From an uncultured Roseiarcus sp. (GTDB taxonomy: Bacteria > Pseudomonadota > Alphaproteobacteria > Rhizobiales > Beijerinckiaceae): DNA of 64,000 nt. The stretch is taken from assembly GCA_945957375.1 (NCBI GenBank), contig CAMFKX010000001.1, forward strand, positions 1-64,000, read 5' to 3'. The notes under the pieces were generated by a model. It saw only the letters and a program-made list of their open reading frames with translations, was not told where the DNA came from and made no database searches. Below, one piece after another: positions 6,808 to 51,911 of the stretch (positions are counted from its first letter, which is position 1; every line of letters starts with the position of its first letter). The translations under genes were made by a program, and so were the position numbers.

Positions 6808-7579
6808 CGGGTTCGGTCAGCAGGTCGATCAATCGTCGCCGGTCGAATTCGGCGACGCCCAGCTCGCGCGTCAGATAGGCGTCGAAGGAGCCGTAGACGC
6901 GATCAATTTCGTCGAGCGCCGCTTCGAGATACTTCGGTTGCGCGGCGAGCAGGATCGTGACGACTTCCTCGGGTGTCTCCGGACCGAAAAGATGCGGAAC
7001 CGGGCGTCGATAGAGGTTGGTCAGGTTGTAGTCCTCGATCACGGTTTCGCGCGCGACGCCGAGCGCGAGCAGGAGCAGCGCCGCCGCGAACCCTGTCCGA
7101 TCTTTTCCGCTGGTGCAGTGAAGCAGCAGCGGATAGCTCCCGGGATCAAGGGCGACGGCGAAAGTCTGTCGATATTCGGGCGTATGATCGACGCAGAACA
7201 GCCGATATTGCGCGATGACCCGCCGTTCGAGCTCGGGCGACCGGATTGTTCCGGCCTTGACCTGCGCCAGCATTTCGAGCGTCCCGGCGGGAATGAAGCC
7301 CGCCTCCATCATCCGGATCGACGAGCCGGGCGGCAGCCGGTCGGGACTGGCTTCTCGCTCCATCGGTAGCCGAAAATCGATCAGCGCCCTCAGGCCCAGA
7401 CTTTCGAGGCGGGCAAGGTCGGCGTCGGTCAGACCGGCGAGATTGTCGGCGCGATAGACCCGTCCCCATCGGGTCCGCCGGTCGGCGCCGGCGGCGTAGC
7501 CGCCAAGGTCACGAAAATTGACGGCCCCTTCGAAGGGAATGCGTCGTCGATCGTCTGTCTGCATCCGCTTGGCTCCCAA
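6794..7579 (-). CDS. Tyrosine-protein phosphatase-like (Y_phosphatase3 type)
   Basis: HCTSGKDRTGFAAALLL P-loop; NFRDLGGY N-terminal motif; start may be 7564. Confidence 0.88.
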   Translation of the reverse strand: MGAKRMQTDDRRRIPFEGAVNFRDLGGYAAGADRRTRWGRVYRADNLAGLTDADLARLESLGLRALIDFRLPMEREASPDRLPPGSSIRMMEAGFIPAGTLEMLAQVKAGTIRSPELERRVIAQYRLFCVDHTPEYRQTFAVALDPGSYPLLLHCTSGKDRTGFAAALLLLALGVARETVIEDYNLTNLYRRPVPHLFGPETPEEVVTILLAAQPKYLEAALDEIDRVYGSFDAYLTRELGVAEFDRRRLIDLLTEPVTPR

Positions 7580-9092: not shown

Positions 9093-9152
9093 CGCCGCTT
9101 CGCTCCCACTTGGACGGACCCAAAGGTCCGGACCCTTTGTCTTTCGGGCATT

Positions 9153-9176
9153 GTGTCCGACGTCTTTGTATGACAA
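9153..9176. promoter_or_regulatory. Motif B operator candidate (GTGTCCGACGT-CT-TTGTATGACAA)
   Basis: Two 11-mers at 13-bp spacing between divergent genes. Confidence 0.6.
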
Positions 9177-9222
9177 GAATTGCGACCGCGCCAGTCAGGG
9201 TCGTCGTATCGGCAGGAGAAAA

Positions 9223-10230: not shown

Positions 10231-10261
10231 CCCGGACGGACGTCCTATTTCGCGCCCGCTC

Positions 10262-11308: not shown

Positions 11309-11386
11309 CGAAATGCCGTCCGTTCATTCCGCCGGTCTGCGCGGGAGACGCCGCCGGCTTTCAGGACATGCGCCATTATAGGCTCC

Positions 11387-12955
11387 TTATCGACCGGCGA
11401 GACCGCGCTCGATGTCGGCCCGCGTCAAGCTCGCTCCCCGCCCGGAAAGCACACGAGACTGCCGCTGGGCATGCCGATAAAGCTCCTGCGCGGCTGGCTC
11501 GGCGTGGTGATAGTTGAGCCAGTAGTCATCGAGGAACCGGTTCTCGTCGTTGCATGCCGAAGGCGTGAACGCCTGCGCCGCTTGATTGTACGCGTCCTGG
11601 TCGAGAAGCCCCTTCGAGGTGCGCCATTTGCCCGACTTCGCGCCGAGGATCGAACTGCCCGGAAAAAGCGGGCCCGAGGTCCTGGTGTAGTCGCCGGTGG
11701 CGAGGACACCGTAGGGAATCGGCGAGTAGATGCGATGCGGCCGGTTGGAATGCATCGACATCACGTAGTCGTGCGCCTGCTGGCTCGGCAGCGAAACCGG
11801 ACCGAGCATTTCGGTCAGGCAGTCGCGGCCGTATTCGTCGTTGAGCAGGGGAACGAAGCGGCGGGCGCGGTCGTCGATCTCCATCCAGTCGGACTGATCG
11901 TAGACGCCGGCGATGTGGGCCAACAAGGCCGGCGCGTTGTAGTAAACGAGGGCGCCCGCTTCGATCATTTCCGAGCGCGACCACTTCGCGAAACGCTCCC
12001 ACAATCTCGCCGTCGCATTGGCGAACAGGTCCTGCAGCTTGTTGAACGTGGCCGTGAGTTCAGCCGCGTCATTCATCGACACCGGAATATAGCCGTCGGT
12101 CAGCGGATCCGAAGTGTAGAGGCCGATGGCCACGATGCTCTCGGCGCGGAATTCCGGTTTCGACTCGAAACTTCCCCAGTCGTCGACGAGATAGAAGTGC
12201 GTGTCCTTGACGACGATGGGCATGGTCAGGTTGTTGTAGGGAATATCGTCTGCGACGCCGTCGAGCCAGGGAAAGTCGCACTGCGAGAGATCGACAAAGT
12301 CGCGAACGAGCATCTCGCGATCGCCGCCAAACTTGTAGGGACCCTCGTTGCAAATGCCCATGCGGCACTCGCAATGCGAAAGGAAGGAGAACTGCGAAAT
12401 CGTCGCCATGAACCTGACCGCCGCCGTGTGGAGCGGGTCGCCGGCGACGACCGGCAGCGCATCGGCTTCGAAAATCTGCAGCTGACGCTCCGGCTGCACC
12501 TGGCTTCGATGACCAAACTCGCGGGTCATGAGATGGCCGTCGTTGCGATGGTAAGCGAGTTGAAAGCGGCGCCAGAAATCGATGACGTACATCAAGTCCT
12601 CGACGGCGTCCTCCGGCCGAACAAGCCCCATGTTGATCAACAGCTCGCGACCATTGATGTAGTAGCCGGGCATGCACCAGCCCATATTGAGCAGCGTCGT
12701 CTTGGCGCCCATGTTGCGGGCGCGATCGCCGCATTCCTCCGCGCTCATCCGCGCTTCGATCTTCCGAAGCAAGGTCGGATAGCGGTAGTAGGCGTTGAAG
12801 AACGAGAGGAGCATATAGGCGAGCGGGAACAGCTTGGATTCCTGAGTGGTCCGCGTCACGCAGAGCCACCCGATCTCGTCCGACAGCACCTGAAGCGCGT
12901 TGTTGGTTTCAAGCAATTGACGATAGGTGACGGCGTCTGAGGTCATCGGGCGCAT
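11387..12955 (-). CDS. Uncharacterised ~520-aa protein, paralog of 38340-39899
   Basis: Co-linear similarity to second copy (TRTxQESKLFP, YYRYPTLLRKIE, FYLVDDWGSFESKPEF, LFPGSS); no family recognised. Confidence 0.85.
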   Translation of the reverse strand: MRPMTSDAVTYRQLLETNNALQVLSDEIGWLCVTRTTQESKLFPLAYMLLSFFNAYYRYPTLLRKIEARMSAEECGDRARNMGAKTTLLNMGWCMPGYYINGRELLINMGLVRPEDAVEDLMYVIDFWRRFQLAYHRNDGHLMTREFGHRSQVQPERQLQIFEADALPVVAGDPLHTAAVRFMATISQFSFLSHCECRMGICNEGPYKFGGDREMLVRDFVDLSQCDFPWLDGVADDIPYNNLTMPIVVKDTHFYLVDDWGSFESKPEFRAESIVAIGLYTSDPLTDGYIPVSMNDAAELTATFNKLQDLFANATARLWERFAKWSRSEMIEAGALVYYNAPALLAHIAGVYDQSDWMEIDDRARRFVPLLNDEYGRDCLTEMLGPVSLPSQQAHDYVMSMHSNRPHRIYSPIPYGVLATGDYTRTSGPLFPGSSILGAKSGKWRTSKGLLDQDAYNQAAQAFTPSACNDENRFLDDYWLNYHHAEPAAQELYRHAQRQSRVLSGRGASLTRADIERGLAGR

Positions 12956-12957
12956 TC

Positions 12958-13662
12958 CTAAACCAACTTCCACACTTCTGCCGGTTTCTCGACGCCGCTT
13001 TGATAGTCGTGAGCGGTCTTGGCGGAGGTCGACGTGTTCAGTTCGAGGCGGTCGCCGTTCTTGATTCCGCTGACCTTCGCGTTCATCAGGCAGGGAATGC
13101 CGAACTCCCTCGTCAGGATTCCGAGGTGCGAGCGCACCGTCCCGCCCATGCAGACGACGGCCTTGAAGCTTTCGAGAATCGGCGCGGTGAGCGTGCCGCC
13201 GGAGTCGTCGATGATCGCAATCGTGTCCTCCGGGACGCCATTGATCATCAGCTGGATCACGTCGTCAGCGGTATGGACATAGCGCGCCACGCCGACGACA
13301 TTATGGGGATAGGCGACGACGTTGTCGCCCTGGCCGACCTTGAGCTTGCCGTCTACGGCCTCGCTCGCGATCTCGTATTCGTCCTGCCCGCGCAGGGGCT
13401 TGTACTTTTCAGGCGCTTCTTTTGCGGAGACGGTCGCGGAAACGTCGAACCTGTAGCCGCTGGCCAGGAGATCCGACTCGATGACCTCGAAATCCTTCTG
13501 GGTGATCAGGTCGTAGCTTGATCCGAACACGAAGCTTCCCCAGTCGGCTCCTGACTCCATGAGGCGCCGCTTGACCAGCGCTCTTACCGCGGTGTGGAAG
13601 GCGCTCGGCACCGGGGTCGTTTCGGCGTGACCGAACTTCTTGCCTTCCCAGAATGCCTTCAC
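12958..13662 (-). CDS. PEP-utilizing-enzyme mobile (His swivel) domain protein, paralog of 37559-38302
   Basis: DTIAIIDDSGGTLTAPILESFKAVVCMGGTVRSHLGILTREFGIPCLMNAKVSG; GTG start with GGAGG upstream. Confidence 0.82.
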   Translation of the reverse strand: MKAFWEGKKFGHAETTPVPSAFHTAVRALVKRRLMESGADWGSFVFGSSYDLITQKDFEVIESDLLASGYRFDVSATVSAKEAPEKYKPLRGQDEYEIASEAVDGKLKVGQGDNVVAYPHNVVGVARYVHTADDVIQLMINGVPEDTIAIIDDSGGTLTAPILESFKAVVCMGGTVRSHLGILTREFGIPCLMNAKVSGIKNGDRLELNTSTSAKTAHDYQSGVEKPAEVWKLV

Positions 13663-16285: not shown

Positions 16286-16355
16286 GATGGGCTCCCTCCC
16301 CAGGCGGCTCTTTCGGCAGCCTGTTCTTGTGGCGCAGTCGCGTCCTGAGCCGACA

Positions 16356-16379
16356 TTGTCATACAAGAATGTAAGATGC
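16356..16379. promoter_or_regulatory. Motif B operator candidate (TTGTCATACAA-GA-ATGTAAGATGC)
   Basis: TTGTCATACAA is the exact reverse complement of TTGTATGACAA at 9166-9176. Confidence 0.55.
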
Positions 16380-16396
16380 AATCGCCGCTGGCGAAC

Positions 16397-30195: not shown

Positions 30196-30227
30196 GGTCT
30201 GATCCCGCTGTCTTCATTTTGCGGCCC

Positions 30228-32678: not shown

Positions 32679-32758
32679 TCTCTCCTCCTCCCGGGCGGCT
32701 GCGGTTTTCCCCGCTGGCCCGTCCCGCAACGCCAAAGCGACGCGCTCGAAATGAAACC

Positions 32759-34659: not shown

Positions 34660-35904
34660 ATGCGGGAAACCTGCATCGTCGGCGTCGGCATGACCCGCTT
34701 CGGCCGCTTCCTCGAGCGCTCGCTCGGCGATCTCGCCGCCGAGGCGGCGCGCGACGCGCTCGCCGACGCCGGCGCAGCTCCGGGGCTTGCGCAGGCGATC
34801 GTGTTCGCCAACGCGACCCAGGGGGCGCTCGAGGGGCAGCACGGGATCCGCGGCCAGGCCGCGCTCGACGGCTGCGGATTTGGCAACGCCCCGGTGATCA
34901 ACGTCGAGAACGCTTGCGCCTCCGCGACGACCGCCCTGAACCTCGCGCATGTTCTCGTCGGCTCCGGCGCATACGACTGCGTTCTGGCGATCGGCGCGGA
35001 AAAGATGGTCATGACCGACCCTGCGAGGTCGATGGCCGCCTTCGAAGGCAGCTGGGACCTTTCACGCCGCGAGGAGACGATCGCCGGGCTTTTGGCTATG
35101 GGCCACGGCGTCGCGCCGCCGCCGAACGCCGAACCGGAAGGCCCTCATAGTGTGTTCATGGATGTCTACGCCGCCTTCTGCCGCCACCACATGGCCAGGT
35201 TCGGCACGACCCAGCGTCAGATGGCGGCGGTCAGCGCCAAGAATCACAAACAGTCGGTCGAGAACACGCGCGCCCAATACCGGCGCGCGTTCACGGTCGA
35301 CGAGGTGATGGCGGCGCGGCCGATCGTCTGGCCGCTCACGCTGCCGATGTGCAGCCCGATCAGCGACGGCGCGGCGGCGGCGCTGGTGTGCGCGCCGGAG
35401 GTCGCCCAAAGGCTCGGGAACGCCGACCGCGCCGCGCGGATCCGCGCCAGCGTCCTCATGTCCGGCGACCATCGCGATCCGGACCGGCTCGAAGACCATG
35501 TCGCGCGCAAGGCCGCGCGCCGGGCGTACGACCTCGCCGGGCTCGGGCCCGAAGACGTCGACGTCGTCGAGTGCCACGACGCGACCGCGTTCGGCGAAAT
35601 CCTGCAAAGCGAGATGCTCGGCTTCTTCGGCTTCGGCGACGGCGGTCCCGCCGCCGAACGCGGCGACACCGCTCTCGGAGGCCGGATTCCGTTCAACCCC
35701 TCGGGCGGCCTCGAATCGAAGGGTCATCCGATCGGCGCGACCGGACTCGGACAGATTTTCGAAATCGTCACGCAATTGCGCGGAGAGGCTGGCTCCAGGC
35801 AGGTCGGGGGCGCCCGCATCGGCCTTGTGGAGAATGGCGGCGGCCTGCGCGGAGTCGAGGAAGCCGCCGTCGCGATCACGATCCTGGAGCGGGCGCGCCG
35901 ATGA
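34660..35904 (+). CDS. SCP-x/thiolase-like acyltransferase
   Basis: VENACASATTALNLA; NPSGGLESKGHPIGATG. Confidence 0.9.
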   Translation: MRETCIVGVGMTRFGRFLERSLGDLAAEAARDALADAGAAPGLAQAIVFANATQGALEGQHGIRGQAALDGCGFGNAPVINVENACASATTALNLAHVLVGSGAYDCVLAIGAEKMVMTDPARSMAAFEGSWDLSRREETIAGLLAMGHGVAPPPNAEPEGPHSVFMDVYAAFCRHHMARFGTTQRQMAAVSAKNHKQSVENTRAQYRRAFTVDEVMAARPIVWPLTLPMCSPISDGAAAALVCAPEVAQRLGNADRAARIRASVLMSGDHRDPDRLEDHVARKAARRAYDLAGLGPEDVDVVECHDATAFGEILQSEMLGFFGFGDGGPAAERGDTALGGRIPFNPSGGLESKGHPIGATGLGQIFEIVTQLRGEAGSRQVGGARIGLVENGGGLRGVEEAAVAITILERARR

Positions 35905-37418
35905 ACCTTGCGCTCCTGCTGGACGCCGCGGCGCGAAGTTTCCCGCGCATGCCGGCGCTCTCGGTCGCCGACCGACCGATCTACGACTATGCGGCCTATG
36001 GGGCGCTCGCCGCGCGTCTGGCCGGCGGCCTCGAGGCGCTCGCCCTTGCGCCGGGCGACCGGGTCGTGCTGGCGATGACCAACAACGCCGAATATCTGGC
36101 CGCCCTGTTCGCGATCTGGCGCGCCGGGCTCGTGGCCGCGCCGGCCAACGCCAAATTGCACGCCCGCGAGATCGCCTTCATGGCCGCCGACTGCGCAGCG
36201 AAGCTGTGCCTCGCGACGCCCGATCTCGCCGAGGGGCTTGCCCGCGAACTCGCGCCGCCGACCCGTCTCGTCGTGCTGGGAGACGACGACTGGCGCCGAA
36301 TGGCGCAGGCCGAGCCGGGCCGGATCGCCGCCTCTAGAGGCGACGACCTCGCCTGGCTCTTCTACACCAGCGGCACCACCGGCCGCCCGAAGGGCGCGAT
36401 GCTCAGCCATCGCAATCTGATGACGATGGCGACGCTCTATCTTGCCGACGTCGACGCGCTCGCCCCGGGCGACACCCACCTTCACCTCGCGGCGCAATCG
36501 CACGCGACGGGCCTGTTCGGCCTTTCCCACATCGCCAAGGCGACCCATCAGGTTCTGCCCGCGAGCGGCGGCTTCTCGCCCGGCGAACTCGCCGACCTCC
36601 TCCGGCTGCATGCGCGCGCGAGCTTCTTCGTGCCGCCGACCGGCCTCAGGCGGATGCTGCGCGATCCCGCATTCCGCGACGCCCCGCTCGAAAACATCCG
36701 CACCGTGCTGCTCGGCGCGGCCCCGGTCTACGCGGCCGATCTGAAGGCGGGGTACGCGGCGCTCGGGCCGCGGCTGTGGAACGGCTACGGCCAGGGCGAA
36801 AGCCCTTGCACCATCACCGCAATGCCGAAGAGCCTGCTGGCTGCGGCGATCGCCGCCGGCGACGAGGCGCGGATGGTGAGCGTCGGGCTGGCGCGGACCG
36901 GTATCGAGGTCGCCGTCGTCGATCCCGACGACCGACCGCTGCCGCCAGGGGAAGTCGGCGAAGTGGCGGTGCGCGGCGACACCGTGATGGCGGGCTACTG
37001 GAACCTGCCGGAAGCGACGGCGACGGCGCTGCGCGGCGGCTGGCTGCACACCGGCGATCTCGGCGCGCTGGACGCCGAGGGCTTCCTGAGCCTGCTCGAC
37101 CGGTCCAAAGACCTCGTCATCTCCGGCGGCTCCAACATCTATCCGCGCGAAATCGAAGACGTGCTGCTCGAACACCCCTCGGTCGCCGAAGCGGCCGTCA
37201 TCGGCGCGCCGGATCCCGAATGGGGCGAGAGCGTCGTCGCGTTCGTCGTGCCGCTTGACGGTCGCATCGACGTCGCCGCGCTCGACGCCCTCTGCCTGCA
37301 GCGGATCGCGCGATACAAGCGACCCAAGCACTGGCGGGTGGTCGACAGTCTGCCGAAGAACGGCGCCGGCAAGGTGCTGAAGCGCGCGTTGCGGGAGCTT
37401 TACGAAACCGCAGACTGA
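35901..37418 (+). CDS. AMP-dependent acyl-CoA ligase
   Basis: FYTSGTTGRPKGAMLSHRN; ATGA overlap with upstream CDS. Confidence 0.94.
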   Translation: MNLALLLDAAARSFPRMPALSVADRPIYDYAAYGALAARLAGGLEALALAPGDRVVLAMTNNAEYLAALFAIWRAGLVAAPANAKLHAREIAFMAADCAAKLCLATPDLAEGLARELAPPTRLVVLGDDDWRRMAQAEPGRIAASRGDDLAWLFYTSGTTGRPKGAMLSHRNLMTMATLYLADVDALAPGDTHLHLAAQSHATGLFGLSHIAKATHQVLPASGGFSPGELADLLRLHARASFFVPPTGLRRMLRDPAFRDAPLENIRTVLLGAAPVYAADLKAGYAALGPRLWNGYGQGESPCTITAMPKSLLAAAIAAGDEARMVSVGLARTGIEVAVVDPDDRPLPPGEVGEVAVRGDTVMAGYWNLPEATATALRGGWLHTGDLGALDAEGFLSLLDRSKDLVISGGSNIYPREIEDVLLEHPSVAEAAVIGAPDPEWGESVVAFVVPLDGRIDVAALDALCLQRIARYKRPKHWRVVDSLPKNGAGKVLKRALRELYETAD

Positions 37419-37558: not shown

Positions 37559-38302
37559 GTGGCCAAGCTTCTCGTGGACAACGACAAGTACGCCGAACCG
37601 AACACGTCGGTCGTGGTGGACGCTTACCACGCGGCGATCCACGACCTGATTCGGCGCAAGCTCGATGACGTGGGCGGCGACTGGGCCAGCTTCGTGTTCG
37701 ACAAATCCTACGACCTGGTCACGGCCGCTGAATTCGCGGCGATCGAAAAGCGGCTCCTGGCGACCGGCCACCGCTTCGACTGGTCGGCGATGATCTCGGT
37801 GCGCGAGCGCCCCGAGGCCTACAAGCCCGCGACCGGCCTTGGCGAGGACATCAAGACCTTCTCCTTCGAGCACCCGGACGCCGTCGTCGCGCCGGCCGAC
37901 GAAAACGGCCGCGAACAGCGTGGAATTGGCGACAACGTCGTCAAGCTCTCGACCAATCTGGTCGGCATCGCGCGCTACATCCGATCGAGCGATCGTGTGC
38001 TCGACCTTCTGACGTCCGGCGTTCCCGCCGATACCGTCGCGGTGATCGACGACAGCGGCGGCACGCTGACCGCTCCGATCCTCGAACAATTCAAGGGCGT
38101 GATCTGCGCCGGCGGCACGGTGCGCTCGCACCTCGGCATCCTCACTCGCGAATACGGCATTCCCTGTCTGATGAATGCGAAAATCAGCGGCATCCGGGAG
38201 GGCGACCGCGTGGAAATCGAATCCACCGCCGCCGCCAAGACCGCCGAAGCCTACCAGACCGGCGTGGAGATGACCGCCAGGATTTGGCGGCTCGCCAAAT
38301 AA
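37559..38302 (+). CDS. Stand-alone PEP-utilizing-enzyme mobile (His swivel) domain protein
   Basis: DTVAVIDDSGGTLTAPILEQFKGVICAGGTVRSHLGILTREYGIPCLMNAKISGIREGDRVEIE. Confidence 0.87.
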   Translation: MAKLLVDNDKYAEPNTSVVVDAYHAAIHDLIRRKLDDVGGDWASFVFDKSYDLVTAAEFAAIEKRLLATGHRFDWSAMISVRERPEAYKPATGLGEDIKTFSFEHPDAVVAPADENGREQRGIGDNVVKLSTNLVGIARYIRSSDRVLDLLTSGVPADTVAVIDDSGGTLTAPILEQFKGVICAGGTVRSHLGILTREYGIPCLMNAKISGIREGDRVEIESTAAAKTAEAYQTGVEMTARIWRLAK

Positions 38303-38339
38303 ACCCGCTCAGACTCAAGCTTCCGGGGAGAATCGACCG

Positions 38340-39899
38340 ATGGGATCGAGCCGCATCAGCTATTCGCAGCTTCTCGAGACCAATAATCTCATCCAGGCCA
38401 ACGCCGATGAGACCTATTGGCTCTGCGTGACGCGCACCGTTCAGGAATCGAAACTGTTTCCCGTGCCGGCCTACATGATGCTGTCCTACATGATGGCCTA
38501 CTACCGCTATCCCTCGCTCTTGCGCAAAATCGAGCAGAGCCTGTCGGCGGAGGAGATCGGCGACCGGGCGCGCAACGCCGGCATCAAGATCCAGAATCCC
38601 TCGATGGGATGGGCGCTGCCGGGGTTCTATCTGCTCGGGCGCGAGTGGCTGATCTCGCTGGGCCTGATCCGGCCGCAGGACGCCCTCGAAGACCTGGTCT
38701 ACCTGATGGACTTCTGGAAGCGCTTCCAGCTGTCGTGGCACCGCAACAACGGCCACATCACCAACAAGGAATTCGGACATCGCGGCCAGTTCCTGCCGGA
38801 ACGGACGGTGCAGGTCTTTCACGCCGACATGTACGACTGCAAGCAGGGCGACGACCTGCACGAGGCGGCGCAGGCCTTCATGGCCGCGGCGTCGCAGTAC
38901 GGCTTCCTGATCTCCTGCGAGAGCCGCATCAGCCTGCACAATTCCGGTCCGTACAAGATCGCCGAAGATCGCGAAATGATCGTGCGCGATTTCATGGACC
39001 TCTCGGAGAGCGATTTCCCGTGGCTGGACGGCGTCGCGGCCGACGTGCCTTACAACAACATCACCGTGACGATGGCGGTGAAGGACTGCCACTTCTACCT
39101 GGTGGACGACTGGGGCAGCTTCGAGTCGAAGCCCGAGTTCACCGCGGACAAGCTCGTCGGGGTCGGCCTCTACACCTCGGACACGCTCTCGGATGGCTAC
39201 GTGCCGGTGGCGATGGGCTCGCGCGAGGAACTGACCGCCTGCTTCAAGAACCTGACCGAGAAGGTGAAGGACGCCACCAACAAGCTCTGGCGCCGGCTCG
39301 CCGGCTGGTCGCGCGACCAGATGATCGACGCCGGCGCGATCACCTACTTCTCGATCGTCAAGGACCTCGCTCATGTCGCCGGCGTCTACGACGTCGACGA
39401 CTGGATGATGGTCGACGAGCGCGCCGAGCGCTTCCGACCGCTGTTCAACGACGAGTACAGCCGCGACGCGCTGGTCGGCCTGTGCATCGGCACGCACACC
39501 TCGCATCGCCTGAGCGAATACACGATGATGCAGCACTCGAACGGACCGCAGCGCCTCTATTCGCTGATCCCCTATTCCGTCCTGCAGGGCGACAGCTACA
39601 CGACGTCGTGCGGACCGGTCTATCCGGGAACGAGCCACCTGCCTGCGAAGGTCGACCGCTACAATACCACCCGCGGAATCATCGGCCTCGAAGAGTACAA
39701 CCGGCTTGCGCGCGAGGTGCGGCCGCCTGCGCTCGACCCGAAATACCGTCACCTTTGCGAGACGTGGGTCAAATACCACGCGGGCGAACCGCTCGCGGAC
39801 GAGCTCTACAAGATCGAGCAGGCGAACTCGCGCCTTCTGCGAGGCAAGGGCTCCGGCCTTCGGCGCGCGGATGTCGAGAAGCTCCGGAACGTGCGCTGA
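38340..39899 (+). CDS. Uncharacterised ~520-aa protein, paralog of 11387-12955
   Basis: Good RBS (GGGGAG), conserved paralog, no domain recognised. Confidence 0.88.
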   Translation: MGSSRISYSQLLETNNLIQANADETYWLCVTRTVQESKLFPVPAYMMLSYMMAYYRYPSLLRKIEQSLSAEEIGDRARNAGIKIQNPSMGWALPGFYLLGREWLISLGLIRPQDALEDLVYLMDFWKRFQLSWHRNNGHITNKEFGHRGQFLPERTVQVFHADMYDCKQGDDLHEAAQAFMAAASQYGFLISCESRISLHNSGPYKIAEDREMIVRDFMDLSESDFPWLDGVAADVPYNNITVTMAVKDCHFYLVDDWGSFESKPEFTADKLVGVGLYTSDTLSDGYVPVAMGSREELTACFKNLTEKVKDATNKLWRRLAGWSRDQMIDAGAITYFSIVKDLAHVAGVYDVDDWMMVDERAERFRPLFNDEYSRDALVGLCIGTHTSHRLSEYTMMQHSNGPQRLYSLIPYSVLQGDSYTTSCGPVYPGTSHLPAKVDRYNTTRGIIGLEEYNRLAREVRPPALDPKYRHLCETWVKYHAGEPLADELYKIEQANSRLLRGKGSGLRRADVEKLRNVR

Positions 39900-39917
39900 T
39901 CTCGAGGGGCGAGCGCC

Positions 39918-41429
39918 ATGCAGATCGGCAGTCTGATACGTCGCGCCGCTGTTCACTTTGGCGACGCTCCGTGTCTTGTCGAAGGGGACCGGGTCGTCTC
40001 CTTCCGCGAGTTCGACCGCTTGACTGACCGGCTTGGAAACGCGCTGCTCGAAGCGGGTTTCACGCCCGGCGATCGCATCGGCGTGCTGTTGCCCAACGGG
40101 ATCGATTGTCTCGTCGCCTATTACGCGCTGGCCAAGTCGGGCCTGGTGCGGGTCGGCATGAATACCCGGGAGACGATCGCCAACCACGCCTTCAAACTTG
40201 CCGATAGCGGCAGCCGCGGCGTGATCCATGACATGACCGATCCGATCGCCATCGCGCGGCTCGGCGTCGAGCGGGCGATCGGCGCGCAGGAGCTCGTCGC
40301 GCTCGGCGCGGCCGGATCGGAAACGCCCTGCGCGGTCGATCGGGCTCTCGATGCCCCCTATCGCCTCGGCTACACGGGCGGGACGACGGGGCGTTCAAAG
40401 GCGGTGACGCTGACCACGCGCGGCGAGCTTTCGGAGCTTTCCGCCTTTCTCACCGACCTCACGCCCGACCTGCGGCGCGGCGAGACTTTCCTGCACGCGG
40501 CGCCCATCGCTCACGCTTCGGGGGCGTTTTTCCTGCCCTCGCTGGTCCGCGGGGTCCGCTCGCTGGTTATGTCCAAGTTCGACCCGGCGGGGTTCATCGC
40601 CATCGCGTCCCGCGAGCAATGCGAGCACACGTTCCTCGTCCCCACCATGCTTGCGATGATCCTCGAAGCGGACGGAATCGACGGCGCGACCTTTGCGCTG
40701 CGGACGATCGCCTACGGCGCCTCGCCGATGGCGCCCGCCCTGTTGAATCGGGCGGAGAAGCGGTTCGGCCGCGTCTTTGCGCAGAGCTACGGCCAGGCCG
40801 AGAGTCCGATGGTGATCACCTGCCTCAAGCCGGAGGACCATGACCGCATCGGCTCGTGCGGACGCCCCTTCACCATCGTCGACGTCGCCGTCTTCGACGA
40901 GAACGACAAGCCGCTGGGGCCTGGCGAGCGCGGCGAGATCGTCTGCCGCGGCCCGCAAACGATGGCCTACTACTGGAACAATCCCGAGGCGACGGAGACA
41001 GCGTTCCGCAACGGCTGGCTGCACACCGGCGACATCGGCTACCAGGACGCCGACGGCTTCTTCTACCTGGTCGACCGCAAGAACGACATGTTGATATCGG
41101 GCGGCTACAACGTCTATCCGCGCGAGGTCGAGGACGTTCTGCTCGCCTGCGAAGGGGTCGTCGAAGCCGCTGTCGTCGGCCTGCCGGACGAGAAATGGGG
41201 CGACCGGGTGTTCGCCGTCGTCTCGGGCCGGCCGGGCCTCGACCCCGAGCGCGTCCTCGCTCATGCGCGCGAGAGACTGGCCAGCTACAAACGCCCCAAA
41301 GGCGTCGAGATCTGGCCGGAACTGCCGAAGACCTCCGCCAACAAGATCCTGCGCCGCGCCGTGAAAGATCAGCTCGTCGAGCGGGCGAGACACGAAGCCG
41401 CTGGGGCCCATGAGGAGACGCCAACGTGA
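39918..41429 (+). CDS. AMP-dependent acyl-CoA ligase
   Basis: GYTGGTTGRSKAVTLT; YLVDRKNDMLISGGYNVYPREVEDVL. Confidence 0.93.
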   Translation: MQIGSLIRRAAVHFGDAPCLVEGDRVVSFREFDRLTDRLGNALLEAGFTPGDRIGVLLPNGIDCLVAYYALAKSGLVRVGMNTRETIANHAFKLADSGSRGVIHDMTDPIAIARLGVERAIGAQELVALGAAGSETPCAVDRALDAPYRLGYTGGTTGRSKAVTLTTRGELSELSAFLTDLTPDLRRGETFLHAAPIAHASGAFFLPSLVRGVRSLVMSKFDPAGFIAIASREQCEHTFLVPTMLAMILEADGIDGATFALRTIAYGASPMAPALLNRAEKRFGRVFAQSYGQAESPMVITCLKPEDHDRIGSCGRPFTIVDVAVFDENDKPLGPGERGEIVCRGPQTMAYYWNNPEATETAFRNGWLHTGDIGYQDADGFFYLVDRKNDMLISGGYNVYPREVEDVLLACEGVVEAAVVGLPDEKWGDRVFAVVSGRPGLDPERVLAHARERLASYKRPKGVEIWPELPKTSANKILRRAVKDQLVERARHEAAGAHEETPT

Positions 41430-42028
41430 ACGACATGCATCTGGTCATGCACGGGCTCGCCATCAAGAAACACGCGACGCCCGAGGACATCGCGAGCGGG
41501 ATCGGACTTGACCTCGGCTCGGTGCGCGAAACGCTGGAAAAGCTCGTCGCCGCGCGCCGCGTCGTGGAAGCCAAGGGCCGGTATCTCCTTGCGCCGGCGG
41601 CCCGCATGCTGCTCGACGCCGACTATTCGCGCTATTACGAATCCGTTCGCGCAGACCCCGCGTTCCAGGCCGGCTACGCCGGCTTCGAGCGGCTCAATGC
41701 GACCCTGAAACAGCTCATCACCGATTGGCAGACCACCACCGTGCGCGGCCAGCGCGTGTCGAACGACCACAGCGACAAGGACTACGACGCCAAGATCATC
41801 GACCGCCTCGGCGACCTGCACGAGCGTTCGGAGGAGCCGCTGGGGAAACTCGCCGCCGCCCTGCCTCGCCTGGCGATCTATCGCGACAAGCTCGAGGCGG
41901 CGCTGGACAAGGTCGAGAAGGGGTCGATCGCCTGGGTCAGCGACGCCAAGATCGAGAGCTATCATACGGTCTGGTACGAATTGCACGAAGACCTTCTGCG
42001 CCTGATGCGCCGCGAACGCACCGAATAG
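41426..42028 (+). CDS. ~200-aa protein with HTH-like N-terminus, unknown C-terminal domain
   Basis: 4-bp ATGA overlap with 39918-41429; HATPEDIASGIGLDLGSVRETLEKLVAARRVVEAKGRYLLAP resembles a winged-HTH. Confidence 0.8.
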   Translation: MNDMHLVMHGLAIKKHATPEDIASGIGLDLGSVRETLEKLVAARRVVEAKGRYLLAPAARMLLDADYSRYYESVRADPAFQAGYAGFERLNATLKQLITDWQTTTVRGQRVSNDHSDKDYDAKIIDRLGDLHERSEEPLGKLAAALPRLAIYRDKLEAALDKVEKGSIAWVSDAKIESYHTVWYELHEDLLRLMRRERTE

Positions 42029-42039
42029 CGGCGACAGAG

Positions 42040-43824
42040 ATGACCCACGCCTTCGGACAATGGACGCTCGGACTCGAAGGCGGCGAACCGCCGTCGCGCG
42101 ACTTGATCGGCGGCAAGGCCTGGTCGGTCGCGCGCATGCAAGCGCTCGGCCTGAGCGTGCCGGCGGCCTTTGTCGTGACAACCGCGGCGTGCAGGGCCTT
42201 CCTCGCCTCCGGTAACGAGCCGCCCGGCCTCGAAGCGGAAATCGACGACGGCGTTCGCTGGCTGGAGGCGAAGACCGGGCGCGCTTTCGGCCGCGGGCCG
42301 CATCCGCTGCTCGTGTCGGTGCGCTCGGGGGCGCCGGTCTCCATGCCCGGCATGATGGACACGGTGCTCAATCTCGGCACGAACGACGTGACCGAGGCGG
42401 CGCTGGCCGCCGAGTGCGGCGATCCGGCCTTCGCGCGGAACACCCACAAGCGGTTTCTCGACCTCTATTCGCATATCGTGCTGCGCGCGACGGCGCCCCT
42501 GTTCGATGAGACCAAGAGCCCTGCGGAGTGGCGCGCCGCGATCGCTGCGGATTGCGGCGTCGAGGCCCCGAGCGACGTGCGCGAGCAATTGCGCAGGGCG
42601 GTCAGGGCGGTGTTCGAGTCGTGGAACTCGCGCCGGGCCCGCCGTTATCGACAGCATCACGACATTCCGGACGACCTTGGCACCGCCGTCACCGTGCAGG
42701 CGATGGTGTTCGGCAATCTTGACGCGCGGTCTGGCACGGGCGTGCTGTTCTCGCGTAACCCGACGACCGGCGCCCGCGAGCCCTATGGAGAATATCTGCC
42801 CAGGGCGCAGGGCGAAGATGTCGTCTCCGGGAAGTTCACGCCCGAGCCCCTGTCAACGCTCGGAACGCAGATGCCGGAAGCGCTCGACGGCCTGCTGAAG
42901 GCTGCGCACATGCTCGAACAGGTCGGGCGCGACGCGCAGGACATCGAGTTCACGGTCGAGCGCGGCAAGCTCTATTTCCTTCAGTCGCGTCCGGCCAAGC
43001 TCGCGCCGCACGCGGCCGCGCACATTGCGGTCGACCTCGCGCGCGAGGGGCTGATCGACGAGAGGGCGGCGGTGATGCGCCTCTCGCCCGACCAGGTGCG
43101 AATCCTGCTCAGCCCGCATGTTCGCGAGGGCGGACTGGAGAACGCGCATCTGCTGGCTTCCGGCGAGCCTGCCTCGCCGGGCGTCGGCATAGGTTTGGTC
43201 GTGACGGATTCCGACGAGGCCGAGCGTCGGGCGCACGGCGGCGAAGCGGTCGTCCTCATGCGGCCGACCACCAGTCCGGAAGACCTTCACGGAATGATCG
43301 CGGCGCGCGCCGTCGTCACCGAACAGGGCGGCAGCACCTCGCATGCCGCCGTCGTCGGACGCGCGCTGGGGATTCCGTGCGTCGTCGGCTGCGGAAAGGG
43401 CGCGCTCGACTCGCTCGCCGGTCGCACGGTGACCGTCGACGGCGGGTCGGGCAAGATCTACTCGGGCGCGCTCGAAATCGAGGCGCCGGACGAGGCCGAC
43501 CACGAAGCCCTGGCGCAGTTGACGGTCTGGGCCGCGAGGTTTTCGCCGCTTCGCGTCGTTTCGCCGTCCGCGCCCGAGGCCGCCGCGGCGGCGGATCTGA
43601 CCGCCAACGACGACGCGGCCAACCCCGAGAAGATCGGGGAGGTGCTTCGGGATTTGAAGGGCGCGCGCGGCGCGCGCGGAGGCATTCTCGCTTCCGACGA
43701 GGGCGTGCGCGCGGCTCTTAAGGCCGGACTCGAATTCATCGTGGCCGATCCGGTTCTGCCGCCTCTGCTTGCCGCCGTCCGCGCGACTGAAGCCGGGGTC
43801 TCCATCGAGGTCGAGGACAAATGA
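42040..43824 (+). CDS. Truncated pyruvate-phosphate-dikinase-like protein (ATP-grasp + His swivel; no PEP/pyruvate barrel)
   Basis: LLVSVRSGAPVSMPGMMDTVLNLGTND; EPYGEYLPRAQGEDVVSGKFTPEPL; QDIEFTVERGKLYFLQSR; GGSTSHAAVVGRALGIPCVVG. Confidence 0.92.
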   Translation: MTHAFGQWTLGLEGGEPPSRDLIGGKAWSVARMQALGLSVPAAFVVTTAACRAFLASGNEPPGLEAEIDDGVRWLEAKTGRAFGRGPHPLLVSVRSGAPVSMPGMMDTVLNLGTNDVTEAALAAECGDPAFARNTHKRFLDLYSHIVLRATAPLFDETKSPAEWRAAIAADCGVEAPSDVREQLRRAVRAVFESWNSRRARRYRQHHDIPDDLGTAVTVQAMVFGNLDARSGTGVLFSRNPTTGAREPYGEYLPRAQGEDVVSGKFTPEPLSTLGTQMPEALDGLLKAAHMLEQVGRDAQDIEFTVERGKLYFLQSRPAKLAPHAAAHIAVDLAREGLIDERAAVMRLSPDQVRILLSPHVREGGLENAHLLASGEPASPGVGIGLVVTDSDEAERRAHGGEAVVLMRPTTSPEDLHGMIAARAVVTEQGGSTSHAAVVGRALGIPCVVGCGKGALDSLAGRTVTVDGGSGKIYSGALEIEAPDEADHEALAQLTVWAARFSPLRVVSPSAPEAAAAADLTANDDAANPEKIGEVLRDLKGARGARGGILASDEGVRAALKAGLEFIVADPVLPPLLAAVRATEAGVSIEVEDK

Positions 43825-44312
43825 GCGACATCAAGCCCAGAGACATCGAGGCGCTTCTGGAAACCTTCGAGGCTTCCGACTGGAGCGAAATGAAGCTCAA
43901 GATCGACGGCCTCGAGATGTTTGTGTCCAAGTCGCCCGACGGGCGCCCTGCGTCCGGTCCCGGCGACTGCGCAACCCCGGCAGCGCCGCTTGTCGCGTCG
44001 TCCGCGTCGACGCCCGCCCTGTCGCCCGCCGCGGTCGGCGTGACGCGGGCAGGCGCGCCCCCCGACCATTGGATCACGGTGCGCGCGCCAAACCTCGGCA
44101 CATTCTATCGCTCGCCGAAGCCGGGCGCTCCGCCCTACGTCAAGATTGGCCAGCACGTCGACTCGGACGACGAAGTCTGCCTGATCGAAGTGATGAAACT
44201 GTTCACCACCGTGCTCGCAGGCGCCTCGGGAGTCGTTCGTCAGGTGTTGGTCGAGGACGCCGAGCTCGTCGAATTCGATCAGGCGCTCTTTCTGTTAGAA
44301 CCCGCCGCCTGA
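43821..44312 (+). CDS. Biotin carboxyl carrier protein (AccB-like)
   Basis: Biotinylation motif CLIEVMKLFTTV; Pro/Ala linker; ATGA overlap upstream. Confidence 0.93.
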   Translation: MSDIKPRDIEALLETFEASDWSEMKLKIDGLEMFVSKSPDGRPASGPGDCATPAAPLVASSASTPALSPAAVGVTRAGAPPDHWITVRAPNLGTFYRSPKPGAPPYVKIGQHVDSDDEVCLIEVMKLFTTVLAGASGVVRQVLVEDAELVEFDQALFLLEPAA

Positions 44313-44313
44313 G

Positions 44314-45681
44314 ATGCCCCTCAGCCGAGTCCTCGTCGCCAACCGGGGCGAAATCGCCCTGCGCATCGTGCGCGCAGCAAAGAGCCTCGGCGTGGAGACG
44401 GTGCTCGCGGCGTCGGTTGCGGATCGGGAAAGTCTCGCGGCGCGGGAGGCGGACCGCGTGGTGACGCTCGGCCCCGCGCCGGCGCGCGCCTCTTATCTCG
44501 ACGCCAATCTTGTCGTGCATGCCGCGAAGGCCACAGGCTGCGACGCCCTGCATCCGGGCTATGGTTTTCTGTCCGAACGCGCTGCGCTCGCCAGGCTTTG
44601 CGAGGATCACGGCATCGCCTTCGTGGGTCCGGCCTCCGCCTCGATCGAGGCGGTCGGCGACAAGCTCGCCGCCCGCCGTCTCGCCAAGAGCGCGGGCGTG
44701 CCGATGACGCCGGGCAGCGCGAAGCTGGCAAGCGCCCAGGAAGCCGTCGCCTTCGCGTCGGAGGTCGGATTTCCGGTCGTCACCAAGGCTTCGGCCGGCG
44801 GCGGCGGGCGCGGAATGGTTGTCGCACGCGACGCGAAGTCGCTCGCCGCCGGTTTCGAGCGCGCCTCCACCGAAGCCAAGGAAGCCTTCGGCGACGGCAC
44901 GCTCTACCTCGAGCGCTACGTTGAGCGCGCGCGCCATGTCGAAGTGCAGGTGCTGGGCCTCGGCGACGGCCGCGTGCTGCATTTCGGCGAGCGCGACTGC
45001 TCGATGCAGCGCCGCTATCAGAAGATGATCGAAGAGGCGCCCGCGGCCGCGATGCCCAACGCGACGCGGGCGCGCCTGCACAAGGCGGCCGTCGAACTCC
45101 TGTCGTCGATCCGCTACCGCAACGCCGGGACGGTCGAGTTCCTGTACGACGTCGAGCGCGACGACTTCTATTTCATGGAGGTCAACGCGCGCATCCAGGT
45201 CGAGCATCCGGTCTCGGAGATGACGTCCGGCGTCGATCTGGTCAAACTTCAACTCGAAGTCGCCGGAGGCGTGTTGCCGCCGGTCACGCAGCGCGACATC
45301 GTTCCGCACGGCCACGCAATCGAGGCGCGCATCCTTGCCGAGGATCCCCGGCGCGGCTTCCTGCCGTGCCCCGGACGCGTCACCCGATGGCGGCCGCCCC
45401 ACGGCGAAGGCGTTCGGATCGACACGGCGATCGAAGAAGGCACGCTCGTTCCGCCTTACTACGACAGCATGATCGCCAAGCTGATCGTGCACGCGCCCGA
45501 TAGGCCGCACGCGGTCCGGCGTTTGCGCGATGCGCTGGACGCGTTCGAAATCGAGGGCGTGGCGACGAATATCGAGTTGCTGCGCGCCGTCGCCGCGCAT
45601 CCCGACTTTTTCGAGAACCGCCTGGACACGCGCTGGCTCGAGACCGTTTTCCTTCCGCATTACGGCCAGCAAGAGGGGTAG
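44314..45681 (+). CDS. Biotin carboxylase (AccC-like)
   Basis: VLVANRGEIALRIVRAAKSLG, ALHPGYGFLSERAAL, KASAGGGGRGMVVA, FMEVNARIQVEHPVSEM. Confidence 0.95.
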   Translation: MPLSRVLVANRGEIALRIVRAAKSLGVETVLAASVADRESLAAREADRVVTLGPAPARASYLDANLVVHAAKATGCDALHPGYGFLSERAALARLCEDHGIAFVGPASASIEAVGDKLAARRLAKSAGVPMTPGSAKLASAQEAVAFASEVGFPVVTKASAGGGGRGMVVARDAKSLAAGFERASTEAKEAFGDGTLYLERYVERARHVEVQVLGLGDGRVLHFGERDCSMQRRYQKMIEEAPAAAMPNATRARLHKAAVELLSSIRYRNAGTVEFLYDVERDDFYFMEVNARIQVEHPVSEMTSGVDLVKLQLEVAGGVLPPVTQRDIVPHGHAIEARILAEDPRRGFLPCPGRVTRWRPPHGEGVRIDTAIEEGTLVPPYYDSMIAKLIVHAPDRPHAVRRLRDALDAFEIEGVATNIELLRAVAAHPDFFENRLDTRWLETVFLPHYGQQEG

Positions 45682-45683
45682 TT

Positions 45684-47147
45684 ATGGCCCATATCGAATT
45701 TCTCGACGAGACAATGCGCGACGGCCAGCAGAGTCTCTGGGGCATGCGCATGCAGGCCGGCATGGCGCTGCCGGTGGCGCCGCTGATCGACCGCAGCGGT
45801 TTCCGCGTCATCGATCTCGCCGGCTCGTCGCTGTTCGAGGTGATGATCCGCACCTGTCGGGAAAATCCCTGGGAGGGGCTCGACCTGCTCGTTCAGGCGA
45901 TGCCGCGCACCCGCATCCGCGGCGGCATGCGCTCGAACGCGTCCGTCACATTCGGCGTGACGCCGGATTCTCTGATGGACGCGTGGATGCGCCAGCTCAA
46001 CCGACACGGCTGCCGCAGCTTCTGGATCTATGACGTCCTGTTCAACATCGACAAGATGCACCGCCTCGCCAAGGTCGCGAAGGAGTTCGGCTCGGAGGTC
46101 GCCGGCGCGATCATGTTCGCGCTGTCCCCCGTTCACACCGACGCCTACTACGCCGACAAGGCCGACAAGCTTTCGGCTTCGCCCGACATCGACACGCTGC
46201 TGCTCTACGACACCGCCGGAGTGCTGGACAAGGAAAGGCTGCAGACGCTTGTGCCGGCCATCAAGGCCAGCGCACGCGGCAAGCCGATCGAATTTCACGC
46301 CAACAACATCCTTGGCCAGTCCGCAAAGGCCTATCTCGACGCCATCGATCTCGGCGTGTCGATCCTGCATACGGCGAGCCGTCCCATGGCGAACGGCCCG
46401 TCGGTGCCTTCGACCGAGATCATGCTTCACAACGTCGAACTGCTGGGCCACACCCACAGCATCGACAAGTCGCTGCTGCCGCCGGTCGCCGAGCATTTCG
46501 AGAAGGTCGGGAAGGCTGCAGGATTTCTCGTCAACCAGCACAACGAATACGACGTGCTGTCGATCCGTCATCAGATTCCGGGAGGCATGACCGGGACGCT
46601 GAAGGCGCAGCTCGCGCAGCACAACATGACCGACAAGCTCGACGAGGTGCTGCGCGAGACCGCCGAGGTCCGTCGCGACCTCGGCTATCCCGGCATGGCG
46701 ACTCCGTTCAGCCAGCTTGTCGGTATCCAGGCCGTGCTCAACGTCGTCACCGGCGAGCGCTACAGCATCGTCCCGGACGAGGTGATCCAGTACGCCGCAG
46801 GCTTCTATGGAGAGACGGTCGCGCCGATCGATCCCAACGTGCTGGACAAGATCATGAGTTCGCCGCGGGCGAGGCCAGTGGTCGCGAACCCGCCCGAGCA
46901 GCCGACCATCGAGGAGCTGCGCAAGCGCTACGGGACAGACAACGACGACGAGCTCATCCTGCGCGCGTTGGTTCCCGAGCCGGACCTCGAGAAGATGCGA
47001 GCGGCCGGTGCGGTCAAGCGCGATTATCCGACCCTCTCGTCGCCGGAGCTCGAGCAGGTGCAGAAGCTGATGCGCGCAGCCCGGTCGCCGGTCGTGCAGC
47101 TGCGCACGGCGACGATGTCGCTGGAACTCCATCGCCAGGCCGGCTAG
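45684..47147 (+). CDS. PycB/OadA-like carboxyltransferase with divergent active site
   Basis: EFLDETMRDGQQSLWGMRM; TPFSQLVGIQAVLNV; biotin carboxylase and BCCP adjacent. Confidence 0.88.
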   Translation: MAHIEFLDETMRDGQQSLWGMRMQAGMALPVAPLIDRSGFRVIDLAGSSLFEVMIRTCRENPWEGLDLLVQAMPRTRIRGGMRSNASVTFGVTPDSLMDAWMRQLNRHGCRSFWIYDVLFNIDKMHRLAKVAKEFGSEVAGAIMFALSPVHTDAYYADKADKLSASPDIDTLLLYDTAGVLDKERLQTLVPAIKASARGKPIEFHANNILGQSAKAYLDAIDLGVSILHTASRPMANGPSVPSTEIMLHNVELLGHTHSIDKSLLPPVAEHFEKVGKAAGFLVNQHNEYDVLSIRHQIPGGMTGTLKAQLAQHNMTDKLDEVLRETAEVRRDLGYPGMATPFSQLVGIQAVLNVVTGERYSIVPDEVIQYAAGFYGETVAPIDPNVLDKIMSSPRARPVVANPPEQPTIEELRKRYGTDNDDELILRALVPEPDLEKMRAAGAVKRDYPTLSSPELEQVQKLMRAARSPVVQLRTATMSLELHRQAG

Positions 47148-47163: not shown

Positions 47164-48357
47164 ATGCGCAGAGCCGTCATGGTCGATGTCGTGCGGTCGC
47201 CATTCGGGCGCGGCCGGGCAGGCGGCGCGCTGTCGACATTGCACCCGGTCGACCTTTACGCCGCGGTGTTGCGAGCCCTGATCGCCCGAACCGGCGTCGA
47301 CCCGGCGTTGATCGAGGACGTGATCACCGGCTGCGTCATCCAGGTGGCCGAGCAGTCGGGCAACATTGGGCGGCAGGCCGTCCTTGCAGCCGGGCTTCCC
47401 GAGAGCGTGCCGGCCGTCACGCTCGACCGCAAGTGCGGTTCCGCGCAGCAGGCGGTCGACTTCGCGGCGCAGGGCGTCATCGCAGGCGCCTACGACTGCG
47501 TGATCGCCGGAGGCGTGGAGATGATGAGTCTCGTGCCGATGAAGATCAACCGCATGGGGAAGGACAATGAGGGCCCCCTGTTTCATCGACGCTATCCAGA
47601 CGGCATGGTGCGACAGGGAATCTCGGCCGAGTTGATCGCGGCGCGCTGGAGCGTCGGCCGAGATGAGATGGACGCCTTCGCCCTGGACTCGCACAGGCGC
47701 GCGCTCGCGGCCGAGGACGCGGGCGTCACGCAGCGCGCCCTGGCGCCTGTCGAGGCGCCGCTGCCGGATGGGGGCTTTGTGCGCGTGGAGCGCGACGAGG
47801 GTCCGCGGCGCGACACCTCGCTCGAAAGGCTCGCCTCGTTGAAGCCCGCCTTCGAGGACCCGGCGGCCGCGGCGCGCTTTCCGCAGATCCGCTGGAGCGT
47901 CACCGCGGGCAATGCGAGCCAGGTCACCGACGGCTCCTCGGCCATTCTGATCGCCGAGGAGGCCTTCGCGCTCCGGCACGGCCTGAAGCCGCGCGCGGCG
48001 ATCACCCATTTCGCAGTCGCGGGCGATGATCCGATCCTGATGCTGACCGCGGTCATTCCGGCGACGCGCAAGCTTCTTCAGCGAGCCGGGCTCGGGATCG
48101 ACCGGATCGACGCCTTCGAAGTCAACGAAGCCTTCGCTTCGGTCGTGCTCGCCTGGATGCGCGAGACCGGCGCCGATCCGGCGCGGGTCAACCCCTATGG
48201 CGGCGCCATCGCGCTCGGTCATCCCGTCGGGGCCTCGGGCGGCCGTCTGCTTGCGAATCTGCTTGCGCGGCTCGAAGAGAGCGGCGGCCGCTACGGCCTC
48301 CAGACGATGTGCGAGTCCGGCGGCATGGCGAACGCGACGCTGATCGAGCGGCTTTGA
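47164..48357 (+). CDS. Thiolase (acetyl-CoA C-acyltransferase)
   Basis: VTLDRKCGSAQQAV active Cys; NPYGGAIALGHPVGASG; CESGGMANATL. Confidence 0.94.
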   Translation: MRRAVMVDVVRSPFGRGRAGGALSTLHPVDLYAAVLRALIARTGVDPALIEDVITGCVIQVAEQSGNIGRQAVLAAGLPESVPAVTLDRKCGSAQQAVDFAAQGVIAGAYDCVIAGGVEMMSLVPMKINRMGKDNEGPLFHRRYPDGMVRQGISAELIAARWSVGRDEMDAFALDSHRRALAAEDAGVTQRALAPVEAPLPDGGFVRVERDEGPRRDTSLERLASLKPAFEDPAAAARFPQIRWSVTAGNASQVTDGSSAILIAEEAFALRHGLKPRAAITHFAVAGDDPILMLTAVIPATRKLLQRAGLGIDRIDAFEVNEAFASVVLAWMRETGADPARVNPYGGAIALGHPVGASGGRLLANLLARLEESGGRYGLQTMCESGGMANATLIERL

Positions 48358-51128: not shown

Positions 51129-51911
51129 ATGGACCGGGTGAAAGGCAAGATTGCGCTCATCACAGGTGCGGGAACCGGCGTCGGTCGGGCGTGCATGAAA
51201 TTGTTTGCGCAGGAAGGCGCAAAGGTCGTCGGCGTCTCGCGCACGCAGAGCAATCTCGACGAAACGCTCGCCCAGGTGAAGGCGGCCGGCGGCGAGGGCG
51301 CGGTCGTCGCGGCGGATCTTGCAACCTCCGCCGGCGCGGAAAAGGCGGTCGCTGCGGCGCTCGCGGCGTACGGCCGGATCGACATTCTCGTCAATTGCGC
51401 CGGCGTCGGCTATTCCTGGCTGGACAAGAGCCCGGGTTCGATGGGGCCGGTCGACGACACGACCCCCGAGAAGTGGGCCGAGGTGATGGCGATCAATCTC
51501 GACTCGCTCTTTCACATGTGCCGGCTGACGATCCCGCAGATGAAGAAGCAGGGCGGCGGCGCGATCGTCAACGTGACCAGCATTTCCGGCATCCAGGGCC
51601 TCCCCGTCGCCCACACCTACACCGCGGCCAAGGGCGGCGCGATCAATCTCACCCGCTCGATCGCGATCACCTATTGCGACGACAACATCCGTTGCAATTG
51701 CATCGCGCCCGGCTTCATCGCCACGCCGATGGTCGCCTCCGTGCTCGGCATGTTCGACGACCCGCAGATGGCCGATCGCCTGACGCCGATGAAGCGGCCG
51801 GGCACGCCGGAAGAGATGGCCTACGCCTGCCTCTATCTCGGCTCGGACGAGTCGACCTATTGCCAGGGCGCGGTTCTGGTCGTGGACGGCGGCACGACGG
51901 CGCGGCAGTAG
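51129..51911 (+). CDS. SDR family oxidoreductase
   Basis: TGAGTGVG, NCAGVGYSW, YTAAKGG; RBS GGGAGG. Confidence 0.93.
   Translation: MDRVKGKIALITGAGTGVGRACMKLFAQEGAKVVGVSRTQSNLDETLAQVKAAGGEGAVVAADLATSAGAEKAVAAALAAYGRIDILVNCAGVGYSWLDKSPGSMGPVDDTTPEKWAEVMAINLDSLFHMCRLTIPQMKKQGGGAIVNVTSISGIQGLPVAHTYTAAKGGAINLTRSIAITYCDDNIRCNCIAPGFIATPMVASVLGMFDDPQMADRLTPMKRPGTPEEMAYACLYLGSDESTYCQGAVLVVDGGTTARQ

Follow-up and report, generated by a model that had tools for sequence, protein, structure and literature searches.

We describe an eight-gene operon on the forward strand (37559-47147) of a DNA stretch of 64,000 nucleotides from an uncultured Roseiarcus sp. (contig CAMFKX010000001.1, positions 1 to 64,000; the whole stretch is referred to here as the window), which is read with moderate confidence as encoding a catabolic route that resembles the Hpe and Acv pathways while relying on another kinase, and in which a substrate would be phosphorylated, carboxylated, dephosphorylated and cleaved to acetyl-CoA. 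The genes, in the order SW-SB-CL-HT-PK-BCCP-BC-CT, encode a stand-alone phospho-His swivel protein (SW), a 519-aa protein of no known family (SB), an acyl-CoA ligase (CL), a small winged-helix protein (HT), a short protein of the pyruvate phosphate dikinase (PPDK) type (PK), a biotin carboxyl carrier protein (BCCP), a biotin carboxylase (BC) and a carboxyltransferase (CT) (Table 1). A preliminary description of this DNA had reported eight mostly coupled genes on one strand; all are present in the order it gave, and their junctions were confirmed, with a GTGA overlap at 41426, an ATGA overlap at 43821, and gaps of 1 bp before 44314, 2 bp before 45684 and 11 bp between HT and PK. The operon continues past 47147 into the thiolase gene TH and probably starts upstream of SW, with an SCP-type thiolase and a second CoA ligase (CL0), an order shared by Roseiarcus fermentans (locus L028).

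The linkage of these genes is far above chance and the operon is a real unit, since dozens of species have retained it, Rhodococcus with an unchanged gene order. An SB alignment was scanned against 85,462 species genomes, yielding 147 relatives, of which the best 80 loci belong to Alpha-, Beta- and Gammaproteobacteria and Actinomycetota. Linkage was counted in 38 loci, the best of those that span 19 kb or more; because they were selected by the quality of their SB match and some come from related species, the counts do not represent independent events. SB is nearly always accompanied by SW (37 of the 38), and is found with CT in 37 loci, HT in 36, BCCP in 36, CL in 35, BC in 34 and PK in 30, several of the loci that lack PK being contigs cut before it. 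The conserved linkage of dikinase-like, 519-aa and carboxylase genes, which the preliminary description had proposed as a check, is thus borne out. A thiolase is present in 35/38 of these loci (SCP-type in 34/38, TH in 23/38) and a phosphatase in 32/38, with SurE near SB in 28/38. Searches against plasmids by tblastn recovered an identical operon order in Rhodococcus pyridinivorans P23 and Rhodococcus oxybenzonivorans S2-17, and a re-ordered operon in Novosphingobium resinovorum SA1. The SB proteins of the window and of R. fermentans are 97% identical. Among the recurring neighbours are thiolase, SurE, GntR and SDR genes, and no enzyme that would reveal the substrate.

The proposed kinase is not HpeHI and is assembled from other parts. 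PK carries PF01326 and PF00391 without the PEP/pyruvate-binding barrel PF02896, as first noticed from the letters alone and now confirmed by Pfam, which finds the barrel nowhere else in the operon. Its score against the NCBIfam model NF004531 ‘pyruvate, phosphate dikinase’ is 707 bits (cut-off 456), so that automatic annotation will name it PPDK; this name is very probably a misannotation, and an ordinary PPDK is ruled out because the barrel is missing. PK is homologous to PPDK and to the short PPDK family PRK05878/NF004531 over the ATP-grasp and swivel domains, but differs in lacking the barrel and in its proposed partnership with SW, SB and HT. It matches PPDKs at E 1e-121 and the Hpe kinase subunit HpeI (PDB 9GOJ) at E 7e-4. 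The ATP-grasp residues are intact across the homologues (K26 in 48/48 aligned; R95, D301, E303, Q315 and R317 in 49/49), the phospho-His His435 is invariant in 49/49 sequences, and the corresponding His191 of SW is invariant in 75/75. Two invariant swivel histidines together with an intact ATP-grasp suggest, at the level of sequence, a His-to-His phosphoryl relay.

SB gave no match in Pfam, NCBIfam or PDB sequence searches, and a Pfam search over 44 SB homologues found no family. Its AlphaFold (AF2) model is confident (pLDDT 89.6, pTM 0.91), and a Foldseek comparison of this model with the PDB returned no fold match below E 0.53, although the PDB contains structures of RPH, the structural match of HpeH (PMC12167813). 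Against an HpeH reference (PpsA family), hhalign gave a probability of 0.2%, with no detectable relation. The position of SB and its occurrence in a fusion suggest that it would be the acceptor-substrate subunit: in Rhodococcus opacus B4, a single 794-aa protein comprises SW (16-144), SB (228-548) and HT (609-790). HT likewise has no Pfam or NCBIfam family, and a PDB profile search gave chance matches only, but its AF2 model (pLDDT 95.8) places a winged helix resembling MarR/PcaR-type regulators at the N-terminus. The protein had been listed before simply as HTH-like, and the winged helix is indeed there; HT is nevertheless most likely a kinase subunit, not a regulator, because it occurs fused to SW and SB and because most of its near-invariant residues fall within the helical C-terminal half, outside the winged helix.

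The carboxylase is related to, and distinct from, that of the Hpe pathway. With an Hpe-type cluster found in Rhizobium leguminosarum BT01 as the comparison reference, the window proteins show identities of 48.5% (BC), 38% (CT) and 35% (BCCP). At the CT position of the carbamylated lysine (residue 175), the homologues have Tyr in 50/57, Glu in 7/57 and Lys in 0/57, and the second metal histidine (205-208 region) is mostly replaced by Asn, while D13 and H205 are kept. The lysine and the HxH ligands of pyruvate carboxylase and oxaloacetate decarboxylase are thus not retained, whereas they are present in the solved PycB and OadA chains that were aligned and in the Hpe-type and Tm-1-associated CTs examined. 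A quick tree places the CTs of SB-type systems and one R. opacus CT on one supported branch (SH-aLRT 98), separate from the neighbouring branch of Hpe and Tm-1 CTs (SH-aLRT 100) and from OadA; some branches are long and the deeper placement is uncertain.

The preliminary description knew of no pathway with this combination of enzymes; that statement does not hold, as Hpe and Acv, the known route for phenolic ketones from lignin, combine them, and HpeCBA is homologous to BCCP, BC and CT here. In Rhodococcus rhodochrous GD02 (hpeHICBADEF), HpeHI phosphorylates 4-hydroxyacetophenone or acetovanillone, the three-part biotin enzyme HpeCBA carboxylates the phosphorylated ketone and ignores the free ketone, HpeD dephosphorylates the product, and HpeEF are proposed to cleave it via a CoA ester (PMC9618137). 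Sphingobium SYK-6 has acv genes that are homologous and syntenous to the hpe genes, both pathways dating from 2022. Shared with the window operon are a dikinase with a phospho-His swivel, the homologous BCCP, CT and BC, a phosphatase and a CoA ligase. By contrast, the window kinase has a PPDK-type PK with its own swivel, a second swivel SW, an HT and an SB unlike HpeH; SurE or a tyrosine phosphatase stands in place of the HAD phosphatase HpeD (no window protein significantly matched the Hpe-type HAD phosphatase), thiolases stand in place of an HpeF-type hydrolase, and the CT belongs to a clade of its own with altered metal ligands. The pathway logic has been known since 2022; of the kinase architecture, the SB fold, the CT clade or the SB-type variant as such, no published description was found in the literature under open licence.

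That the window operon is simply the Hpe cluster of this organism is ruled out, as an Hpe-type cluster is found elsewhere in the same genome, on contig C2 (5536-11730). Its CT has canonical metal ligands, and its proteins were compared with the R. leguminosarum set (identities: HpeH 58%, HpeI 53%, BCCP 42%, BC 58%, CT 57%). The window operon thus forms a second, parallel system, whose substrate is presumably a different one. A second HpeHI-like pair is found on contig C38. A simple split phenylphosphate synthase, the precedent first cited for the kinase, is also ruled out, by the profile comparison of SB with HpeH and the lack of an RPH fold match. The multi-subunit dikinases PpsABC (Thauera) and CreHI (Corynebacterium) phosphorylate phenols through a swivel histidine and share the mechanism class, but the PpsA/CreH/HpeH family is unlike SB; phenylphosphate carboxylase, for its part, is not homologous to HpeCBA (PMC9618137). 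The MarK pathway of Novosphingobium aromaticivorans, as cited in PMC13101465, shows that the kinase slot in this type of pathway can be filled by different enzymes, in that case a single-component one. In two loci, from Pseudomonas putida YC-AE1 and Sphingomonas bisphenolicum AO1, a Tm-1-like ATP-binding protein, perhaps a MarK-type kinase, occupies the kinase position before BCCP-BC-CT-HAD; a related CT was seen in an unannotated locus of Novosphingobium humi.

The distribution of the genes points to a division of labour. Gammaproteobacterial loci (L066, L069 and, on a shorter contig, L068) contain a cassette TyrP-SW-SB-HT-CT without PK, BCCP or BC, and in 9/10 genomes whose SB locus had no PK (cassette, partial or cut), a complete or almost complete PK (54-64% identity) is encoded at another site. 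In actinobacterial loci a single PK lies downstream of three SW/SB pairs, and one locus (L086) has three CTs in tandem. Most simply, SW, SB, HT and CT would form the substrate-specific half, while PK and, by inference, BC and BCCP would supply phosphate and CO2. The window itself contains a second pair, SB2/SW2 (11387-13662, reverse strand), with no PK, HT or CT of its own nearby; this pair would share the PK and HT of the main operon, and its closer relatives in L086 and L095 belong to operons that are complete or almost so. The arrangement resembles, by analogy only, the phosphotransferase system (PTS; EI with substrate-specific EII), in which a shared phosphoryl donor serves several substrate-specific partners through two phospho-His in series; the window system differs in being ATP-driven and a kinase of intracellular small molecules, with homology confined to the swivel domain. 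Tentatively, and with the odds somewhat against so specific a proposal, these genes could represent a new four-part, PTS-like class of dikinase, in which a short PPDK-type donor would pass phosphate via a second swivel to exchangeable SBs of new fold, each with its own CT of a new clade in which the canonical metal lysine is missing.

From the observed gene content, conservation, fusion and cassette structure, we infer the following reaction steps. The PK ATP-grasp would phosphorylate His435 on its own swivel, from which the phosphoryl group would pass to His191 of SW and then to a hydroxyl group on the substrate, which SB and HT would hold. BC would carboxylate the biotin on BCCP, and CT would carboxylate the phosphorylated substrate at the carbon adjacent to a keto group. 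The phosphate would then be removed by a phosphatase of the SurE or tyrosine-phosphatase type, and a CoA ligase would activate the β-keto acid for cleavage by thiolase into acyl-CoA and acetyl-CoA. The substrate is probably a hydroxylated ketone; a methyl or ethyl ketone bearing a hydroxyl, whether aromatic or of the terpenoid/steroid kind, would suit the pathway logic. Several points weigh against this route. The substrate and the enzyme activities are all deduced from the genes, and the role of SB in acceptor binding, given its lack of a known fold, from position and fusion. The CT lacks the carbamylated lysine and mostly the second metal histidine, which leaves room for a different chemistry. 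SurE proteins and tyrosine phosphatases both form broad families, and the presence of two CoA ligases and two thiolases makes the end of the route ambiguous.

Other explanations of the operon were weighed on the same evidence. The kinase and carboxylase could serve one catabolic programme but act on different intermediates, for example with a tertiary or secondary alcohol being trapped or activated by phosphate and the unphosphorylated ketone carboxylated later. This accords with carboxylase-free modules related to SW, SB, HT and PK that adjoin genes for P450s, alcohol/aldehyde dehydrogenases, dioxygenases and, in Methylibium, a cobalamin-dependent mutase, yet it appears unlikely, since cassettes of SW-SB-HT-CT without PK or BC bind this kinase type closely to the CT clade. 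It is decidedly improbable that the kinase forms the enol phosphate of a ketone, as PPDK forms PEP from pyruvate, for subsequent carboxylation. PK is PPDK-derived by sequence and the natural acceptor of PPDK is an enolate, but the pyruvate/PEP-binding barrel is absent, the homologous Hpe system carries its phosphate on a phenol oxygen, and carboxylation of an enol phosphate releases the phosphate, which makes a separate biotin carboxylase and phosphatase hard to explain. Enol phosphorylation is less probable than O-phosphorylation of a hydroxyl.

There is very little chance that the dikinase-like genes are regulatory, with HT as a transcription factor, SW and PK as a phospho-signal, and an ordinary ketone or acyl-CoA carboxylase beside them. 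The winged helix of HT is what such a reading could draw on; the fusion of HT to SW and SB, the place of its near-invariant residues, the retention of all tested ATP-grasp residues in PK and the presence of separate GntR-family genes near the clusters argue otherwise, and the PK-free cassettes, which tie the kinase to the carboxylase, speak against an unrelated ordinary carboxylase. Phosphorylation followed by carboxylation, as originally suggested, stands as the best reading, and the genes belong together; for the kinase, what had to be given up is the split phenylphosphate synthase, since SB is unlike HpeH and PK is nearer to PPDK than to HpeI.

Table 1. Genes of the operon and associated genes in the window
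Feature	Position	Strand	Description
SW	37559..38302	+	Stand-alone phospho-His swivel, 247 aa, GTG start, GGTVRSH motif, His191; PF00391 (E=2e-7)
SB	38340..39899	+	519 aa, no known family; proposed acceptor-substrate subunit of kinase
CL	39918..41429	+	AMP-forming acyl-CoA ligase; PF00501/PF13193; proposed activator of carboxylated product
HT	41426..42028	+	200 aa, winged-helix and helical; proposed kinase subunit
PK	42040..43824	+	594 aa, short PPDK-type, ATP-grasp and own swivel (TSH, His435); PF01326, PF00391
BCCP	43821..44312	+	Biotin carboxyl carrier protein, EVMKL; PF00364 (Biotin_lipoyl), TIGR00531 (116 bits)
BC	44314..45681	+	Biotin carboxylase; PF00289, PF02786, PF02785 (Biotin_carb_N/CPSase_L_D2/Biotin_carb_C)
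CT	45684..47147	+	PycB/HpeB-like carboxyltransferase; PF02436 (PYC_OADA)
TH	47164..48357	+	Thiolase, acetyl-CoA C-acetyltransferase family; PF00108/PF02803
SCP-type thiolase	34660..35904	+	PF22691; upstream part of cluster
CL0	35901..37418	+	Second AMP-forming acyl-CoA ligase; PF00501; overlaps SCP thiolase gene
SurE-family phosphatase	6010..6807	+	PF01975; away from operon in window
Y_phosphatase3	6794..7579	-	Tyrosine-phosphatase-like; PF13350
SB2	11387..12946	-	Second copy of 519-aa protein, 55% identical to SB
SW2	12958..13662	-	Second swivel copy; GGTVRSH
SDR oxidoreductase	51129..51911	+	Recurs near cluster; orthologues (≥50% identity) in 14 loci

Of the associated genes, SurE is likely the phosphatase of the pathway; in R. 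fermentans its gene lies directly upstream of the cluster. The Y_phosphatase3 protein is a candidate alternative, its gene occurring within the Rhodococcus operons and adjoining SurE and the operon in R. fermentans. The recurrent SDR could possibly make the ketone from an alcohol. One island of the window also contains four acetoacetate-decarboxylase-like (ADC) proteins (4916-5932, 7601-8332, 15500-16381 and 31887-32690), homologues of which recur beside several of the SB-type operons, and two complete ribose-type ABC transporters, 118-4597 and 27627-31217 (-), flank the catabolic island.

Modules related to the kinase were seen in other settings. In the same genome, contig C239 (4507-8516) encodes a distant paralogous set of swivel, 469-aa SB-like, HT and PK proteins, with no carboxylase on the contig. 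On a plasmid of Methylibium petroleiphilum PM1 (8761-11650), genes for a cobalamin-dependent mutase and MeaB directly follow SB-, swivel- and HT-like genes, which suggests that a kinase takes part in the metabolism of tertiary alcohols. Mycobacterial and Streptomyces plasmids (L108, L110 and L111) contain short ‘PPDK’ genes beside an HT homologue, with a PEP-utilizing enzyme in addition in L108 and L111; these short ‘PPDKs’ are probably misannotated members of the same kinase class.

To our knowledge, the strategy of phosphorylation, carboxylation and dephosphorylation has been described in a few strains only, in all cases for hydroxyphenyl ketones. The cluster described here indicates that far more bacteria, of widely differing kinds, use this strategy with an independent kinase. 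It offers a functional hypothesis for genes usually annotated as hypothetical protein, PEP-utilizing enzyme or pyruvate phosphate dikinase, and the mycobacterial and streptomycete PK/HT modules labelled PPDK may merit the same reinterpretation. It also points to a protein, SB, without known fold, and poses the question of two phospho-histidines in a form that can be tested with a handful of proteins.

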